A stretch of DNA of 64,000 nucleotides. It comes from Haladaptatus sp. ZSTT2. Its GTDB lineage: Archaea > Halobacteriota > Halobacteria > Halobacteriales > Halococcaceae. The DNA lies in contig NZ_JBAMHQ010000001.1 of assembly GCF_037081775.1 (NCBI RefSeq), forward strand, positions 682,001 through 746,000. Direction: 5' to 3'. This document shows, one piece after another, positions 27,678 to 34,648 of this stretch; position 1 is the first letter of the stretch; the number at the start of each line of letters is the position of its first letter. A model generated the notes under the pieces. The model saw nothing but the letters and a program-made list of their open reading frames with translations, was not told where the DNA came from and searched no databases. Position numbers and translations under genes: made by a program.

Positions 27678-28038
27678 AAAGGGTTTAAACCGGCGGCCCG
27701 CTAACTACCTTCTGCGTGCCATTAGTCCCCGCCTGAGCGTACCTGTTCAGGGTGCAATGACTGTGCGGCGAACCCAGGCACGCGACATACGGAGAATCCG
27801 CCAGTTGGCGGCGCCTGACACGAGGGTTTCCCGGTTGACGCGGCACGCCGCCTCGGGATGATACCGGCCGTTAGTGTCTCGGGCGACACTCCTCACACGA
27901 CGAGTCTCTACCATCACCCGAGTATACACATTTCTGGAACGGGATTCAATACGTTTAGTTATCGACACAGGTGAGAACATCCGGTGAGTGCCCGTGCAAC
28001 GTACAAACCTAAAGTGCCTTTGCCACTGATACACGCGT
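27678..28038. other. Non-coding gap upstream of the Lrp-type regulator
   Basis: No convincing gene. A minus-strand frame of 55 codons (27747-27914) is arginine-rich and lacks the acidic haloarchaeal composition, so I do not call it. The right end (28000-28038) should hold the regulator's promoter. Confidence 0.5.
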
Positions 28039-28524
28039 ATGGTCGAAGAAGCGATTGATGACGTTGATAGGGCGATCTTGTATGCACTGCAGGAAGACGC
28101 CCGAAATATGTCGTCCGGAGATATCGCGGAGCGCACCGGGACCTCAGACAGCACCGTTCGCAAGCGGATCAATCGGCTCGAATCCGACCGGGTAATTAAA
28201 GGATACAGCGCCAGCGTCGATTACCAGAAGTCAGGCTATCCACTCCGAATGTTGCTCTATTGCACCGCCTCGATACCGCAGCGTGGTGAGTGCATCCCCG
28301 AAATTCTCGGGATAGATGGTGTCGTTTCGGTTCAGGAGTTGGTCACCGGTGAACAGAACCTCCTCGTTACTGCCGTTGGCGAGTCCGATAGCGATATCAC
28401 GCAAGTGGCACAGAAACTTCTCGATATGGGGCTCACCATCGCCGACGAGGTTCTCGTACGAAGCCACGAGACGACGCCATTCGGCAAGTTTTCTCCCGAG
28501 GATCAAACGGAGACTGATCGATAA
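28039..28524 (+). CDS. Lrp/AsnC family transcriptional regulator
   Basis: A 161-residue regulator with an N-terminal winged HTH (DDVDRAILYALQEDARNMSSGDIAERTGTSDSTVRKRINRLE, about 6-48). A C-terminal RAM-type alpha/beta domain (about 65-145) is expected to bind a small ligand. The C-terminal tail is polar. It lies about 200 nt upstream of the carbonic-anhydrase-like gene on the same strand, and the dab genes follow, so it is the best local candidate to control them. A CAAAC-GT-GTTTG repeat straddles the region just after its stop (28527-28538). Confidence 0.9.
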   Translation: MVEEAIDDVDRAILYALQEDARNMSSGDIAERTGTSDSTVRKRINRLESDRVIKGYSASVDYQKSGYPLRMLLYCTASIPQRGECIPEILGIDGVVSVQELVTGEQNLLVTAVGESDSDITQVAQKLLDMGLTIADEVLVRSHETTPFGKFSPEDQTETDR

Positions 28525-28722
28525 TCCAAACGTGTTTGCTTTCGAACACGGTCGGACACCGGACAACCGCTCGTACCGGATCGGCAGTGTCTGCGTAACG
28601 ATTCGGTTTATTGATACGGTATTATGAACACTTCGGTAATTATTTGACCTCTATCGGGCAATCCGGTTGCACGGCCTAATGCCTCACATAGATGAGTCGG
28701 AACAGTGGAGGACAATCTGTCG

Positions 28723-29403
28723 ATGAACGATGGCAATCTCGAATCCGTCGTTGAGTCGGTTCAAGACTGGGTCGGTTCTGAGAGAGACTGGACAGACGGT
28801 TCGAGTTCACGCACGGCACTCGTCATTTCGTGTTCGATGGAAGGTTGGAACCCCCAAGAACCACTGTGGCCGGTTGACGCCGCTTGGAACCTCATCAAGG
28901 TGCAGACCCTCGGAAACCAGGCCTGGAGGAGACACGAGGGCGAAATGGTTCTAGATGGCAATATCGAACATCTCAGAACTCAGTACGACGTTGGGGCAGT
29001 CCTCGTCGTTGGACACACGAAGTGTACGGTTCTCGAAGACGCACACGAGGAGTGGGTTGCGCCTGCGTCACAGTCTCCCGCAGGGATCAAAGCACGACTA
29101 GATCCCCTTCGCTTGATCGTCAGAGATGGGTTCAAAGAGGGAACCATTACAGAATCAACGCCGCTTCGGACGGTACGGTGTCGACTCGTCGAATTCAACG
29201 TCCACCGACAGGTTCAGTTCCTTCGTCAAGCACTCCCTCGGTCGATCACGGTAGCTGGCTACGTTCACGACCAAGACGGAGTATACGGCTCGTTTCCAGA
29301 TAACTGGTATCTGGTTGCGCTCGACGGTAAAATCGAACCGCAGACTATCCGAACCCAACTCCCCGAAGACACGACGGTTCACGTTGCGAGTCTGTTGCGC
29401 TGA
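28723..29403 (+). CDS. Beta-carbonic-anhydrase-like protein lacking the Asp/Arg dyad
   Basis: A 226-residue protein aligned by eye to beta-carbonic anhydrases. VGAVLVVGHTKC gives the His98 and Cys101 zinc ligands, VEFNVHRQVQFLR matches the following helix, and VAGYVHDQDGVYGSF matches the Gly-(Trp/Tyr)-x-(Tyr/His)-D strand. Upstream, VISCSMEGW provides the first zinc ligand Cys37, 61 residues before His98. The canonical C-x-D-x-R is instead C-S-M-E-G, so the catalytic Asp and Arg are missing. Zinc binding is likely; CO2 hydration is doubtful. The ATG at 28723 is preferred over a GTG at 28705. It lies directly upstream of dabB-dabA. Confidence 0.75.
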   Translation: MNDGNLESVVESVQDWVGSERDWTDGSSSRTALVISCSMEGWNPQEPLWPVDAAWNLIKVQTLGNQAWRRHEGEMVLDGNIEHLRTQYDVGAVLVVGHTKCTVLEDAHEEWVAPASQSPAGIKARLDPLRLIVRDGFKEGTITESTPLRTVRCRLVEFNVHRQVQFLRQALPRSITVAGYVHDQDGVYGSFPDNWYLVALDGKIEPQTIRTQLPEDTTVHVASLLR

Positions 29404-29470
29404 ACGCCCACATCCGCCACATATCGTTCCAGTATTGAGAGTTTATCGAACAGTTTGTGAAAAATCAGAG

Positions 29471-29480
29471 TTTTTATTAA
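29471..29480 (+). promoter_or_regulatory. TATA-like element upstream of dabB
   Basis: TTTTTATTAA is the only strong AT block between the carbonic-anhydrase-like gene and dabB. It lies about 90 nt before the chosen ATG, so dabBA may have a separate promoter with a leader of about 65 nt. Confidence 0.35.
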
Positions 29481-29570
29481 CCAATACGTTCTCGAGGTGG
29501 ATAACAACGATAGTCTCGGTCCGCCGAATTCTACACGGCTGCCGGGATGGGTCGCGAAATAATCAGATCG

Positions 29571-31058
29571 ATGTCAGGACATAACTCGAAGAAGACGGTC
29601 GGAACGCTCCCGAACACGACGGTGAAATCACCGTACGTGCCCGTCGCACTGACGTGGCTCGTGTGGACACTGTTCGCTGCGAGTATCGTGGTTCTCGCCA
29701 CGCGAATTCAGTTCGGTGGCACCTGGTCGATCCCCGGCGTGGTCGCCATCGACGGACTGACAGTCCTGATGTGGGTTGTCGTCACTTTCTTCAGCGGTGT
29801 CGTCCACAGCTACTCGCGCCGGTACATGGCTGGCAGCACCCACGAGACGAGGTTTTTCAGCACCGTATTCGGTTTCACGCTAGTCGTGATGGGGCTCGTC
29901 GCGGCAGACCATATCGCACTGTTCGGACTCCTCTGGCTGTCGATGGGGTTGTTGATGGCGAAGCTCGTCGGTACCGTCCGCGGCTGGACGCAGGCACAGG
30001 CAGCCGAGAGGGTCGCCCGCAGATACTTCCTCGCCAGCAGCGTGCTCCTCGGGGTCGCGCTGACCGCGTTGTGGTGGTTGACTGGCGCGACCACGATTTC
30101 CGGAATCGAAGCGGCCGCCGAAACGCTCGGAGGACCGGTGTGGCTCGTCGCAGCGAGCGCGCTCGTCCTCGCGGCGATGATTCAGTCAGCGCTCGTCCCG
30201 TTCCACAACTGGCTGCTCTCTTCGATGACTGCACCGACCCCAGCCTCGGCACTGATGCACGCCGGATTCGTCAACGCAGGTGGCATCCTGCTGACTCGTT
30301 TCGCGCCGGTCATCACTGTCGACGCCGGGCTCATGTTCGCGGTGGTCGCAATCGGCGGCGCCAGTGCAATCGGCGGGAGGCTGCTGAAATCGGTTCAAAC
30401 AGACGTCAAATCTAAGCTCGGCTGTTCGACGGTCGGGCAGATGGGGTTCATGATCATGCAGGCTGGTCTCGGCTTTTTCGGAGCCGCCATCACCCACCTC
30501 ATTCTGCACGGCTTCTACAAGGCCTACCAATTTCTCAGCGCTGGCGAGCGGGTCGAACACACCAGCCCGGATGCACGGCCGTCACGCACAACAGCCCGTT
30601 TGACGAGTGTCGTTGACGTCATCGTGACGCTGGTGACCGGGCTCGCCGGTGGTGTGTTGTTCGCCATGTTAACTGGAAAGGGACAGCACGTCGACAGTGG
30701 CCTCCTCTTGACGTTCTTCGTGGTGTTCACCACGCTACACGCGTCCCGGAGCGCAATCGAGCAGACCGCACTTCCAACGACGGTTCGCTACGGGGCCGTT
30801 CCGTTGGTCTTCTTCCCCGCCATCATCGTCTATGCCGTCGTCTACGAGAGCGTCTCGATGCTTCTTGAAATCGGGCCGGTGACGACCGAACTGACACTCC
30901 TCCACGGTATCATCGTCGTCGTCTTCGTCGGCGTCTACATCGGCATCGAGACCGGCATCCACGAGAACAGCCAACGTCTCTACGTCGCACTACTGAACGC
31001 CAGCCAACCGTCGTCGGATACCGTGTTGACCACAACGGAGGACTACAATGAATACTGA
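29571..31058 (+). CDS. dabB: DabB-type NuoL/NdhF-like proton channel subunit
   Basis: A 495-residue integral membrane protein of the proton-conducting NADH dehydrogenase/antiporter family, with about 13-14 hydrophobic segments. Core motifs include FFSGVVHSYSRRYMAG, WLLSSMTAPTPASALMHAGFVNAGGILLTRF and LGCSTVGQMGFMIMQAGLG. No other complex I or Mrp genes are nearby; its only partner is the DUF2309 gene, whose ATG lies inside this gene's 3' end (11-nt overlap). In DAB systems DabB couples cation flow to DabA. An ATG at 29547 would add eight residues. Confidence 0.85.
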   Translation: MSGHNSKKTVGTLPNTTVKSPYVPVALTWLVWTLFAASIVVLATRIQFGGTWSIPGVVAIDGLTVLMWVVVTFFSGVVHSYSRRYMAGSTHETRFFSTVFGFTLVVMGLVAADHIALFGLLWLSMGLLMAKLVGTVRGWTQAQAAERVARRYFLASSVLLGVALTALWWLTGATTISGIEAAAETLGGPVWLVAASALVLAAMIQSALVPFHNWLLSSMTAPTPASALMHAGFVNAGGILLTRFAPVITVDAGLMFAVVAIGGASAIGGRLLKSVQTDVKSKLGCSTVGQMGFMIMQAGLGFFGAAITHLILHGFYKAYQFLSAGERVEHTSPDARPSRTTARLTSVVDVIVTLVTGLAGGVLFAMLTGKGQHVDSGLLLTFFVVFTTLHASRSAIEQTALPTTVRYGAVPLVFFPAIIVYAVVYESVSMLLEIGPVTTELTLLHGIIVVVFVGVYIGIETGIHENSQRLYVALLNASQPSSDTVLTTTEDYNEY

Positions 31059-33459
31059 ACCCACCCTCGAAGAGAAAATCGACAAGGCAGCGGCCACGGT
31101 CGGCTCGCTTTGGCCGATCCACTCGTTCGTGACGTCGAACCCGCTGTCAGGGTTCGAGAACCAACCGTTCGGAAAGGCAGTCGCGCAGGCAGCTGACCTA
31201 CTGGGCGGTCGTGGCTATCCCACCCCTGCGACGTTTCAGAAGGCCCTGGAACGCGGCCAGATAGACCCCGAAATACTCGATGCGAAACTCGATTCGGCGG
31301 GCTACGTGGAGGACCCTGAAGTACTGCTCGACCGTCTGGCCGACTCGACCACCAGTAGCGACGGTGAAACGGACACCGGCACCGACCACGTCAATCAAGT
31401 CCTGACCAAGTGGTTGTCGACGTTCCTCGACGAAGGAAGTGCCTACTGGTCGATGCCGAACCGCGAAGCGGGATTCTACACCGCGTTCCGCGAAATCGCC
31501 CGGTACGACACCGAGATTCCCGACGAGGGAGTCGTCGCTGACCTGCCCGAAACGCCGGCCGAAGCCATCGAGGCCGTGTTGGAGCCCTATCCAAAGAGCC
31601 AGTGGACTCCGATATTCGAAGAGCAGCTGGCTGCACTCCCCGGCTGGACTGGGTTCATCAAGCGTCGCGCCGAGGACGAAGGTTCGTGGCAGTCGGCTCA
31701 CCCCATAACACTGCTCGGATATCTCGGAATCCGCCTCGCACTGCTCGACGGGTTCGGTGCCGAGATTGCACCCTCCACCGGCCCCAACAGCACAGAGGCT
31801 GATGCAGCCGACGAAATCGCCGAAGCGTTCTTGAGTGCGTGGGAAGCGAGCTACCGGACCGAACTCGTCGAGAGCGTCGCTGCCGAGAGCCAATCGCTCG
31901 TCGACCGCGACGCGTCGGGCCGCCCGGACGCGCAACTGGTCTTCTGTATCGACACCCGTTCGGAGATTATCCGTCGTCACATCGAGGCCGTGGGCGACTA
32001 CGAGACCCACGGCTACGCCGGGTTCTTCGGCATCCCGATGGAGTACCAAGGCTATGCGTCCGACGTGTCGGTCGCTTCCTGTCCGCCGATTCTCGAACCG
32101 AAACACCGCATCACCGAGGTTCCGACTGACGGAGACACACAGGTGGAACACGACCGCTGGGTGGGCATCCGCGAGGCGGCGGACGAGGTCGTCGAAACGG
32201 TGAAAGCAAACGCCGCCACGGCCTACGGCTACGTCGAAACCACAGGGAGTGGCTATGGTCTCGCACTCGCAGCACGGACGCTCGTCCCCGACCGCGTCCA
32301 TGACCTGCTCGACGTCATCGCCGATTCGGTGCCGGACGAACACGAGTTCTGTGACCAGATTGTTCACCACCAGTACACGTACGCTGGCGACCTCCCGGTG
32401 GGACTCACGCAGGAGGAGAAAGTCGAGTACGCTTCGACCGCCTTCGAACTAATGGGGTGGGAGGAGTTCGGTCGACTCGTCGTGTTCACCGGTCACGCAA
32501 GCGAGACGGCGAACAATCCCTATGACGCGAGTTTGGACTGTGGTGCCTGTGCTGGCAACCCCGGGGGGCCGAGTGCCCGCGTCCTCGCGACGATTTGCAA
32601 CGACGAGGCCGTACAGAACGACCTCCGCGAGCGCGGAATCGACGTTCCCGAGGACACCGTGTTCCTCGCCGGCCAGCACAACACCACGACCGACGAGATC
32701 GAACTGTACGACGGTCACGTGCCCGAGAGTCACGTCGAAGACCTTGAACTGTTGCGTGCCGACCTCGAAACTGCCCGGGCCAACGCGGCTGCAGAGCGTG
32801 CCGCGGACATGGGCGCGAGCACTAAATCTGGCATTCGCGAGACGGAGCGCCGCGCCGCAGACTGGGCCGAGACGCGTCCTGAGTGGGGACTGGCTGGAAA
32901 CGCCGCGTTCGTCATCGGCCCGCGGGCGCTCACCGAGAACCTCGACCTCGACGGGCGCTCGTTCCTCCACTCCTACGATTGGTCGACCGACTCCGACGGC
33001 GAGGCACTCGAAGCGATTATGACGGGACCGATGGTCGTCACGCAATGGATCAACGCCCAGTACTACTTCTCGACTGTCGACAACGCGGTGTACGGAAGTG
33101 GGTCGAAGGTCACCCAAAACCCAGTCGGTAACATCGGCGTCTACCAAGGCAACGGGGGCGATTTGATGACTGGCCTCCCATTCCAGTCACTGATGGCCGA
33201 CGACGACGAGCCGTACCATCAGCCGCTCCGTCTCTCGACGGTTATTCACGCACCGGTCGAGCGCGTCACCGGCGTTCTGGCCAACCACGAGAAGCTGACC
33301 GAACTGCTGGACAACAATTGGCTGTCGCTGACGGTCGTTGACCCGACACAGAACCATCGCGCGTTCGACTACGAGCAGAATTTGGAGTGGCAGTCGATGT
33401 CCATAGAGCCAGCGGCACCTCCTACGACTCCGGACGCTCCCGCAGTTGCGGACGACTAA
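31048..33459 (+). CDS. dabA: DabA-type DUF2309 inorganic-carbon transporter subunit
   Basis: An 803-residue DUF2309 protein (PF10070). In bacterial DAB systems DabA forms a beta-carbonic-anhydrase-like zinc site thought to hydrate CO2 directionally, driven by DabB. The site is intact: Cys300, Asp302 and Arg304 in FCIDTRSE, His483 in FTGHASE and Cys498 in DCGACAG. The 15-residue His-to-Cys spacing equals that recalled for Halothiobacillus DabA (His524/Cys539). The opening IHSFVTSNPLSGFENQPF is also a family signature. It is translationally coupled to dabB. Its last 38 nt overlap the opposing substrate-binding gene. Confidence 0.88.
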   Translation: MNTEPTLEEKIDKAAATVGSLWPIHSFVTSNPLSGFENQPFGKAVAQAADLLGGRGYPTPATFQKALERGQIDPEILDAKLDSAGYVEDPEVLLDRLADSTTSSDGETDTGTDHVNQVLTKWLSTFLDEGSAYWSMPNREAGFYTAFREIARYDTEIPDEGVVADLPETPAEAIEAVLEPYPKSQWTPIFEEQLAALPGWTGFIKRRAEDEGSWQSAHPITLLGYLGIRLALLDGFGAEIAPSTGPNSTEADAADEIAEAFLSAWEASYRTELVESVAAESQSLVDRDASGRPDAQLVFCIDTRSEIIRRHIEAVGDYETHGYAGFFGIPMEYQGYASDVSVASCPPILEPKHRITEVPTDGDTQVEHDRWVGIREAADEVVETVKANAATAYGYVETTGSGYGLALAARTLVPDRVHDLLDVIADSVPDEHEFCDQIVHHQYTYAGDLPVGLTQEEKVEYASTAFELMGWEEFGRLVVFTGHASETANNPYDASLDCGACAGNPGGPSARVLATICNDEAVQNDLRERGIDVPEDTVFLAGQHNTTTDEIELYDGHVPESHVEDLELLRADLETARANAAAERAADMGASTKSGIRETERRAADWAETRPEWGLAGNAAFVIGPRALTENLDLDGRSFLHSYDWSTDSDGEALEAIMTGPMVVTQWINAQYYFSTVDNAVYGSGSKVTQNPVGNIGVYQGNGGDLMTGLPFQSLMADDDEPYHQPLRLSTVIHAPVERVTGVLANHEKLTELLDNNWLSLTVVDPTQNHRAFDYEQNLEWQSMSIEPAAPPTTPDAPAVADD

Positions 33460-34648
33460 CGTCACCCGCCACGATGTCCGCGACGCGCTGGCGGTCGAAC
33501 AACTGCTCGTCTCCGTCTTCTTCGCCGAACACGTCCGGATAGAGTTGCTGTGCGCCGCGTTCGGTGAGAAACAGGTTGTGAATCGGGCCTTGGAACAGGT
33601 AGCCGCCACGGTAGACCTGCTCGTTCTGGACGGCGGTCAGTTCACGTGCCACCGAATGCTCTTGCATGAACGCGAGCACGGTGTCGCGGAACTCGGCCGC
33701 GCTCTGGCGCTCGTGGGCGCGCAGCATGATGACGTCGGGGTCGATTTCGAGCATCGTCTCGTAGTCGATGCGGCTGCGGTCGGTAGTACTGAGGCCCTGG
33801 ATGCCTGTCCCCGCGAGCGCGTCGCTCACGCCGAGGTCGTGCCACTGTTTCTTGCTCGTTCCTTGGTCGTTCAGCCGGTACGGCGAGAACTCCTCTGGCT
33901 CGTTGCTTCCCTCGTACACCAACAGCACGTTCGGTCGGTCGTCTGCGGGTGGCATGTTGGTTTGGATGGTCGCGATGAACTCGTCGTGGAGCGCCTCGAA
34001 CGCCGCGTAGCGTTCCTGTTCACCGAACAGGTGGGCGACCTTCTCGAAGGCTTCGTACAGCGTGTAGTAGCGATAGTCGTGCCACTCGTCTTCGCGGCGG
34101 AAAATCAGATTCCCGAAGAAAGGGCCGACGTTTTCGGTGATTTCGGCTACGTCCGCCTCGCTCCAGTCGAACCAGTTTATCAGCATCTGCGGGTCCATGA
34201 CGTGGACGTCGTTGTCGAGCTCGTAGAAGAGCTCCTTCGACATGCCCGCCTCCCCGAGGTCGTTCGTTTCGAGCAGGTCGCGGTCGACGCTCACGCCGGG
34301 GAGTTCGTCGTACACCTGCGTGTAGTAGCGACCTGCCCCGCCGATGCCCGTCATCCCGTCGCCTTTCCCGAGGGCGACGCCCATGTCTGCGTAGCCGCCG
34401 TCGTAGGCAATCCATTTCTCCGGAATCGACTCAAGTGTGAGGTCGCCAACCGGCTCCATCGAGACGGTGTACCTGCTCGATTCGGTTTCGGTGGGTTGCC
34501 CAGTCGTGGGCTGCTCGCCCGTGGTCGTCGTCGCTGCTGGTGAATCGCCCGCACAGCCTGCGAGGAGGCCAGCGCCAATGACTGCCCCTCCATAGGTCAA
34601 ATAATCTCTTCGCGTCGGTGCGTCGTGTGTTTCCACAGTGTCCGACAT
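33422..34648 (-). CDS. Iron/siderophore-type ABC transporter substrate-binding lipoprotein
   Basis: A 408-residue extracellular solute-binding protein of the PF01497 (Fe-siderophore/cobalamin) type. The Tat signal has the twin arginine at 13-14 (TRRDYLTYGG), and the lipobox LLAGC places the lipidated residue at Cys32. A Thr-rich linker (residues 38-58) precedes the binding domain. The domain has a long internal helix with IDYETMLEIDPDVIMLRAHE, as in the family. No permease or ATPase gene is adjacent, so it is an orphan or works with a distant transporter. Two iron-box palindromes overlap its promoter, which supports iron as the regulating signal. Confidence 0.88.
   Translation of the reverse strand: MSDTVETHDAPTRRDYLTYGGAVIGAGLLAGCAGDSPAATTTTGEQPTTGQPTETESSRYTVSMEPVGDLTLESIPEKWIAYDGGYADMGVALGKGDGMTGIGGAGRYYTQVYDELPGVSVDRDLLETNDLGEAGMSKELFYELDNDVHVMDPQMLINWFDWSEADVAEITENVGPFFGNLIFRREDEWHDYRYYTLYEAFEKVAHLFGEQERYAAFEALHDEFIATIQTNMPPADDRPNVLLVYEGSNEPEEFSPYRLNDQGTSKKQWHDLGVSDALAGTGIQGLSTTDRSRIDYETMLEIDPDVIMLRAHERQSAAEFRDTVLAFMQEHSVARELTAVQNEQVYRGGYLFQGPIHNLFLTERGAQQLYPDVFGEEDGDEQLFDRQRVADIVAGDVSRPQLRERPES

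Follow-up and report, generated by a model that had tools for sequence, protein, structure and literature searches.

Candidate DAB-type inorganic-carbon pump of a haloarchaeon with a linked Lrp-type regulator, operator-like boxes and a dyad-less carbonic-anhydrase-like protein

Introduction

When and why would a heterotroph spend energy on bicarbonate, and which signal would an archaeal regulator read in order to decide it? Both questions are raised by a locus of Haladaptatus sp. ZSTT2 that combines genes of a DAB inorganic-carbon pump with a gene for an Lrp-type protein. DAB pumps have been studied best in autotrophs. DabA is nevertheless encoded by 239 of the 391 Halobacteria genomes sampled here (~61%), and the DAB-bearing members are described as heterotrophs. 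The presence of such a pump in an archaeon has already been recognised and is not the new part. New are the co-occurrence of Lrp and DabA, a three-box element before dabB, a clade of carbonic-anhydrase-like proteins (CAL) without the catalytic dyad, a clean insertion and a missing ion pair in DabB. We analysed a window of 64,000 nucleotides (contig NZ_JBAMHQ010000001.1, positions 682,001 to 746,000), to which all coordinates below refer.

A DAB gene pair in the window

ORF calls and Pfam bear out the initial annotation, in which genes for an Lrp-type regulator, a beta-CA-like protein, DabB and DabA follow each other on one strand:

28039-28524, + strand: lrp, Lrp/AsnC-type regulator, 161 aa; HTH_AsnC, PDB Lrp matches reaching into the C-terminal half
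28705-29403, + strand: CAL, beta-carbonic-anhydrase-like, 232 aa; C43, H104 and C107 kept
29547-31058, + strand: dabB, NuoL-like proton-channel subunit, 503 aa; 9rd0_B match, channel residues, tree
31048-33459, + strand: dabA, beta-CA-like catalytic subunit (PF10070), 803 aa; PF10070, 9rd0_A, active-site and finger residues

The coordinates of the last two frames give the 11-nt overlap of dabB and dabA that had been noted before, and most relatives show the same overlap. Translation of CAL likely starts at codon 7 (~28723) and not at 28705, since M7 is a nearly invariant methionine in the aligned CAL proteins. The four-gene order is present in the window, but a survey did not confirm it as general: the usual haloarchaeal unit is Lrp-dabB-dabA, and just 13 of the 239 sampled genomes with DabA have CAL.

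A Pfam profile search, a check proposed beforehand, matched DabA to PF10070 over the full length of the model (E 2e-266, 747/747 model positions). The best solved match is DabA2 of the Halothiobacillus neapolitanus DAB2 complex (9rd0_A, E 3.5e-109). We compared the DabA and DabB residues named by the DAB2 structure paper (PMC13144422) in an alignment of 21 haloarchaeal sequences. The zinc-site residues C300, D302, H483 and C498, initially described as intact, align exactly with C351, D353, H524 and C539 of DabA2, and R304, S305, E397, H544, D549 and L615 match as well. The Cys/His/Cys zinc ligands and the Asp/Arg dyad (C300, D302, R304, H483, C498) are kept in 21/21 haloarchaeal DabA, and so is the finger glutamate E397, which corresponds to E444 of DabA2; S305, H544, D549 and L615 are likewise present in all 21. 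For some of the DabA and DabB residues kept in haloarchaea, mutation impaired DAB2 (PMC13144422).

DabB matches Proton_antipo_M (8.5e-34) and Proton_antipo_N (5.1e-10), with DabB2 as its best PDB match (9rd0_B, E 1.8e-34). The channel residues S234, H238, K288, S294, H317, H321 and K325 are kept, as in all 21 haloarchaeal DabB aligned. A NuoL-like gene could also encode a subunit of complex I or of an Mrp antiporter, and the best NCBIfam scores of DabB do come from NuoL-type models, though all of them are under the cut-off. The tree rules this out: 28 DabB proteins separate from the five Nuo/Mrp paralogs of the same genome with support of 100/100, so that the grouping proposed as a refutation is absent. 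Unlike DabB, the five paralogs carry Glu where DabB2 has Ile151, and dabB overlaps dabA. We give a complex I or Mrp subunit next to no probability. Profile, residues and DabB tree thus establish the identity of DabA and DabB as subunits of a predicted DAB pump.

The haloarchaeal DabB differ from DAB2 at three positions. R182, D185 and K235 are replaced by a hydrophobic residue (L/V), by S/A/G and by Q (once R), respectively, so that in dabB of the window, as in other haloarchaeal DabB, the pair of TM7 lysine and TM5 aspartate has become Gln/Ser. Bacterial DabB mostly keep Asp/Glu at 185 and Lys/Arg at 235. DAB2 mutants in R182, D185 or K235 still complement, with a yield lowered by 30-60% (PMC13144422). 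Since these mutants still worked, the missing ion pairs mark a variant and do not disqualify the protein; R182 and D185/K235 characterise DAB2 but do not define DABs in general. Without them, coupling in the haloarchaeal DabB may differ from that in DAB2.

Regulator and operator-like boxes

The regulator shows an HTH_AsnC-type Pfam match (3.5e-13); in its C-terminal part Pfam RAM was not matched at E 0.01, and alignments with Lrp proteins of the PDB reach residues 112-134. Orthologs upstream of dabB in other families are 67-90% identical, and Lrp is usually the best conserved among the proteins of the loci compared. Its gene precedes dabB, in the same orientation, in every locus whose contig extends that far. 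At an ortholog threshold of E <= 1e-45, 236 of the 391 genomes carry a close Lrp ortholog. Lrp and DabA are both present in 234 genomes, DabA only in five, which include fragment or contig-edge cases, and Lrp only in two. This co-occurrence covers 53 genera and gives a phi of 0.96, a value that ignores shared ancestry. Beside the sampled bacterial DAB pumps, LysR-type regulators are found mostly.

In many relatives an amidohydrolase gene (PF01979, adenosine-deaminase-like) that the window does not have lies between lrp and the pump (L062-L064, L066, L069, L071, L073, L137, L169, L174, L175, L177, L181, L186). It is convergent with lrp and often overlaps the lrp end by 4 nt. As this gene is often convergent between lrp and dabB, a common transcript of lrp and the pump genes is in many cases not to be expected. 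In Haloarcula-type loci (L080, L091, L179) lrp is flanked by genes for binding proteins related to the PF01497 protein encoded downstream of dabA in the window. On a 23.7-kb Mycolicibacterium plasmid (L194:2028-7039) dabB-dabA precedes a gene annotated as a small regulator and one for a carbonic anhydrase.

For 37 loci with reduced redundancy, a Gibbs search of the sequence preceding the first gene returned a GAAC-nTTnTGGT box with 644 bits, compared to 351-363 bits for shuffled sequence. Because single nucleotides were shuffled and the loci are related to each other, the box statistics are strong but not exact. A matrix was built from loci without CAL, excluding the window, and scanned over all 64 kb. 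Its two best matches, 29447 (+) and 29479 (-), both fall inside the 143-nt gap before dabB, and weaker boxes complete the following set:

28595-28608, + strand: CAL-upstream box 1, TAACGATTCGGTT core, weak (5.4 bits), 30 bp from box 2
28625-28638, + strand: CAL-upstream box 2, with GAACACTTCGGTAA at 28626-28639, 30 bp from box 1
29417-29430, - strand: dabB-upstream box 1, GGAACGATATGTGG, 9.3 bits, 30 bp from box 2
29447-29460, + strand: dabB-upstream box 2, CGAACAGTTTGTGA, 18.2 bits, top matrix match in the window
29479-29492, - strand: dabB-upstream box 3, AGAACGTATTGGTT, 17.5 bits, second-best in the window

Before dabB the spacing is conserved at 29 or 30 bp and then 31 bp (~three helical turns), with the orientation -, +, -, and a TATA-like TTTTTATTAA lies at the upstream edge of box 3. 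Among the held-out CAL-type loci, 13 of 15 distinct ones have their best matrix match before dabB (14/16 if L090, a duplicate of L066, is kept). These findings make a separate regulated start of dabBA probable, also in loci where CAL stands in front. The pair before CAL, both on the + strand at 30 bp, recurs in nine distinct CAL promoters including that of the window, and GAACNNTTYGGTAA from its box 2 is found once in the whole genome, at CAL. In archaea, Lrp sites are known at distances of two or three helical turns (PMC2995911). A pump with its own regulator, earlier proposed from position alone, is now supported by the co-occurrence in 234 of the 391 genomes and by this phased operator-like element; the linkage to the regulator stands, while the conserved element before dabB had been missed.

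Before lrp no convincing box was found, and matrix matches there were at shuffle level in most loci, which gives no support to lrp regulating itself through these boxes. A wider regulon in this genome was considered and set aside: the pattern GTTCN16-18GAACNNTTYGK has five matches in the genome, one of them at dabB, with about one expected by simple count. Scans of the sequence for sigma-70 promoters and terminators, with models not apt for archaea, stayed near shuffle level.

The carbonic-anhydrase-like protein

CAL matches Pro_CA at 4.3e-05 with 24.3 bits, just below the curated cut-off of 25.7 bits. In a search with its AF2 model (pLDDT 80.9; first 33 residues of low confidence) all 50 PDB matches listed are beta-CAs, with E from 4.5e-07 and moderate TM-scores of ~0.5. 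The zinc ligands C43, H104 and C107 are invariant among 12 proteins, the other members being 32-67% identical to the CAL of the window. Fold and zinc ligands hence agree with the original beta-CA-like label, which missed that the catalytic dyad is lost: CAL has S, M and G where ordinary haloarchaeal beta-CAs carry Gln, Asp and Arg. In a tree of 88 proteins from a scan of public genomes, 14/14 dyad-less proteins form one clade (100/100), each encoded just upstream of dabBA and none with the full Gln/Asp/Arg set; the other 74/74 haloarchaeal beta-CAs keep all six residues (Q/C/D/R/H/C). In DabA2 the Asp/Arg dyad is required (PMC13144422). These residues rule out CAL as an ordinary carbonic anhydrase. 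Due to the loss of dyad and Gln, the database name 'carbonic anhydrase', given by NCBI to such a gene in Halorussus pelagicus, is probably wrong and is corrected by this clade.

Ordinary beta-CA genes adjoin haloarchaeal DAB in three other arrangements, namely convergent downstream, downstream on the same strand, and divergent from lrp (L074-L079, L152, L153, L164, L167, L168, L183, L185), with intact catalytic residues in those aligned. This is puzzling, as a pump together with a carbonic anhydrase should be wasteful.

Origin of the cassette

The four genes lie within a block that is absent from the closest sampled congener (G070):

27891-33461, no strand: inserted cassette, 5.57 kb, absent from the empty site of G070

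In blastn, homology to this congener (88%) stops at 27890 and restarts at 33462, just past the dabA stop, and the empty site has only 45 nt between the flanks. DabA was found in 0 of 13 other family members sampled, and in the trees the nearest DabB and CAL sequences belong to other families. Gain of the cassette by horizontal transfer would be the simplest reading; its loss in the relatives is less likely. A transposon was rejected as carrier, since comparison of the insertion ends revealed no target-site duplication and a match of only 7 nt between them. The downstream gene for a periplasmic binding protein (PF01497, 33422-34648) was likewise rejected as part of the cassette, because it falls outside the inserted block and the DAB-less congener has the corresponding region too. 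Its 3' end overlaps the end of dabA inside the inserted block, so the insertion altered its last codons.

Proposed function

We consider it likely that the block represents a horizontally acquired DAB pump whose expression is set by Lrp through the boxes, with CAL as a non-catalytic sensor or modulator. DabB would conduct protons, or another ion, down their gradient and would be joined to DabA through the finger helices around Glu397, while the buried zinc site of DabA would hydrate CO2 to bicarbonate in one direction. Most likely the heterotroph would in this way provide its carboxylases with bicarbonate during CO2 shortage. Candidate users in the genome are two biotin-carboxylase-like proteins and a CPSase-type protein. 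The genome also encodes a protein of the RuBisCO-large family (G000:C1:460502-461329, 297.8 bits). An ordinary beta-CA is retained elsewhere in the genome and would tend to undo a bicarbonate pump, which counts against our proposal.

The adjacent Lrp-type protein most likely binds the three boxes around the dabB promoter, at intervals of three helical turns, as well as the related pair before CAL, and this binding would set the expression of the pump. The boxes surround a TATA-like stretch, which would also suit core promoter elements or the sites of another regulator, with Lrp linked to the pump for a different reason; Lrp as their binder is our inference, no convincing box precedes lrp, and the amidohydrolase gene often stands between lrp and the boxes. 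Three alternating copies at a fixed three-turn spacing, however, fit a phased multimeric binder of the Lrp type, and Lrp tracks DabA closely, so we regard core promoter elements or another regulator as rather unlikely. It is also unlikely, in our view, that dabBA encodes an MpsAB-like bicarbonate importer driven by sodium and not a proton-coupled CO2 hydratase. The DAB homolog MpsAB is argued to couple Na+ and HCO3- (in passages of PMC13144422 that discuss it), sodium is abundant in brine, and the haloarchaeal DabB do not have the ion pairs by which DAB2 tunes its proton transfer. Yet 21/21 sequences keep all seven proton-channel residues as well as the zinc, dyad and finger-Glu residues on which DAB2 depends.

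CAL is most likely a zinc-holding protein of the beta-CA fold without CO2-hydration activity that would sense inorganic carbon or modulate the pump. That it is a decaying passenger with no function in the cassette would agree with its faster evolution than dabB and dabA in most pairs, its rarity among DabA genomes (13/239) and an in-frame stop in Halobaculum gomorrense (G063; L068:5591-5986), where dabB and dabA look intact. Decay is nonetheless not a probable account, since dN/dS of CAL is 0.19-0.47, below 1 and even below 0.5, the three zinc ligands are invariant among 12 proteins, its position is unchanged in several families and it has its own conserved box pair. The intact Cys/His/Cys site and the fold would also permit an enzyme, either a carbonic anhydrase with a different set of catalytic residues or a hydrolase acting on some other small molecule. 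We find this improbable, as Gln, Asp and Arg are lost as a set in 14/14 members, while all 74 other haloarchaeal beta-CAs compared keep the dyad. Fan et al. (PMC8552792) argue that an active CA and a transporter for bicarbonate oppose each other within a cell, and on that account selection could favour a CAL without catalysis. A possible sensor beside the pump is not strange either, since a P-II-type protein adjoins a bacterial DAB (L195). More speculatively, and as less likely than not, we propose that a silent, zinc-bound CAL was recruited once in haloarchaea as inorganic-carbon sensor or regulatory pump subunit and lost its activity because a working enzyme at this place would squander the pump's bicarbonate, and that Lrp, phased operator, CAL and pump form a portable regulation cassette.

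With a single co-inherited Lrp and a recognisable operator, one can study directly under which conditions and for what benefit a heterotroph spends energy on bicarbonate, and to which signal an archaeal Lrp responds. The CAL clade provides a natural test of a non-catalytic beta-CA fold beside a vectorial beta-CA, and the congeners with and without the cassette are a ready comparison pair.

Comparison with known systems

With DAB2 of H. neapolitanus (PDB 9rd0) the locus shares the two-gene pump and all active-site, dyad, finger-Glu and channel residues. It differs from DAB2 in its Lrp-type regulator, in DabB R182/D185/K235, which are L/V, S and Q, and in the extra CAL gene. In haloarchaea, dab genes were predicted by homology in Haloferax volcanii (HVO_2410/HVO_2411; PMC8305020), where the passage concerned names the gene pair without regulator, operator or CAL; PF10070 was also detected in our H. 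volcanii control genome. DAB complexes of heterotrophic Halobacteria are mentioned in a review (PMC10880623). MpsAB of Staphylococcus aureus is a homologous pair in a heterotroph and is required for growth at ambient CO2 (PMC6689103); unlike the pair of the window, it is argued to be a Na+/HCO3- symporter and is regulated otherwise. CAL has the fold and the Cys/His/Cys zinc ligands in common with canonical haloarchaeal beta-CAs (e.g. G000:C1:579708-580163), but forms a separate clade (100/100) without Gln, Asp and Arg. Like the archaeal Lrp proteins BarR and Ss-LrpB, the regulator has an HTH_AsnC domain and several regularly spaced candidate sites (PMC10201364, PMC2995911). In Sulfolobus, BarR sites are separated by two turns, compared to three turns for the boxes of the window, and in contrast to BarR and Ss-LrpB the candidate target here is an inorganic-carbon pump.
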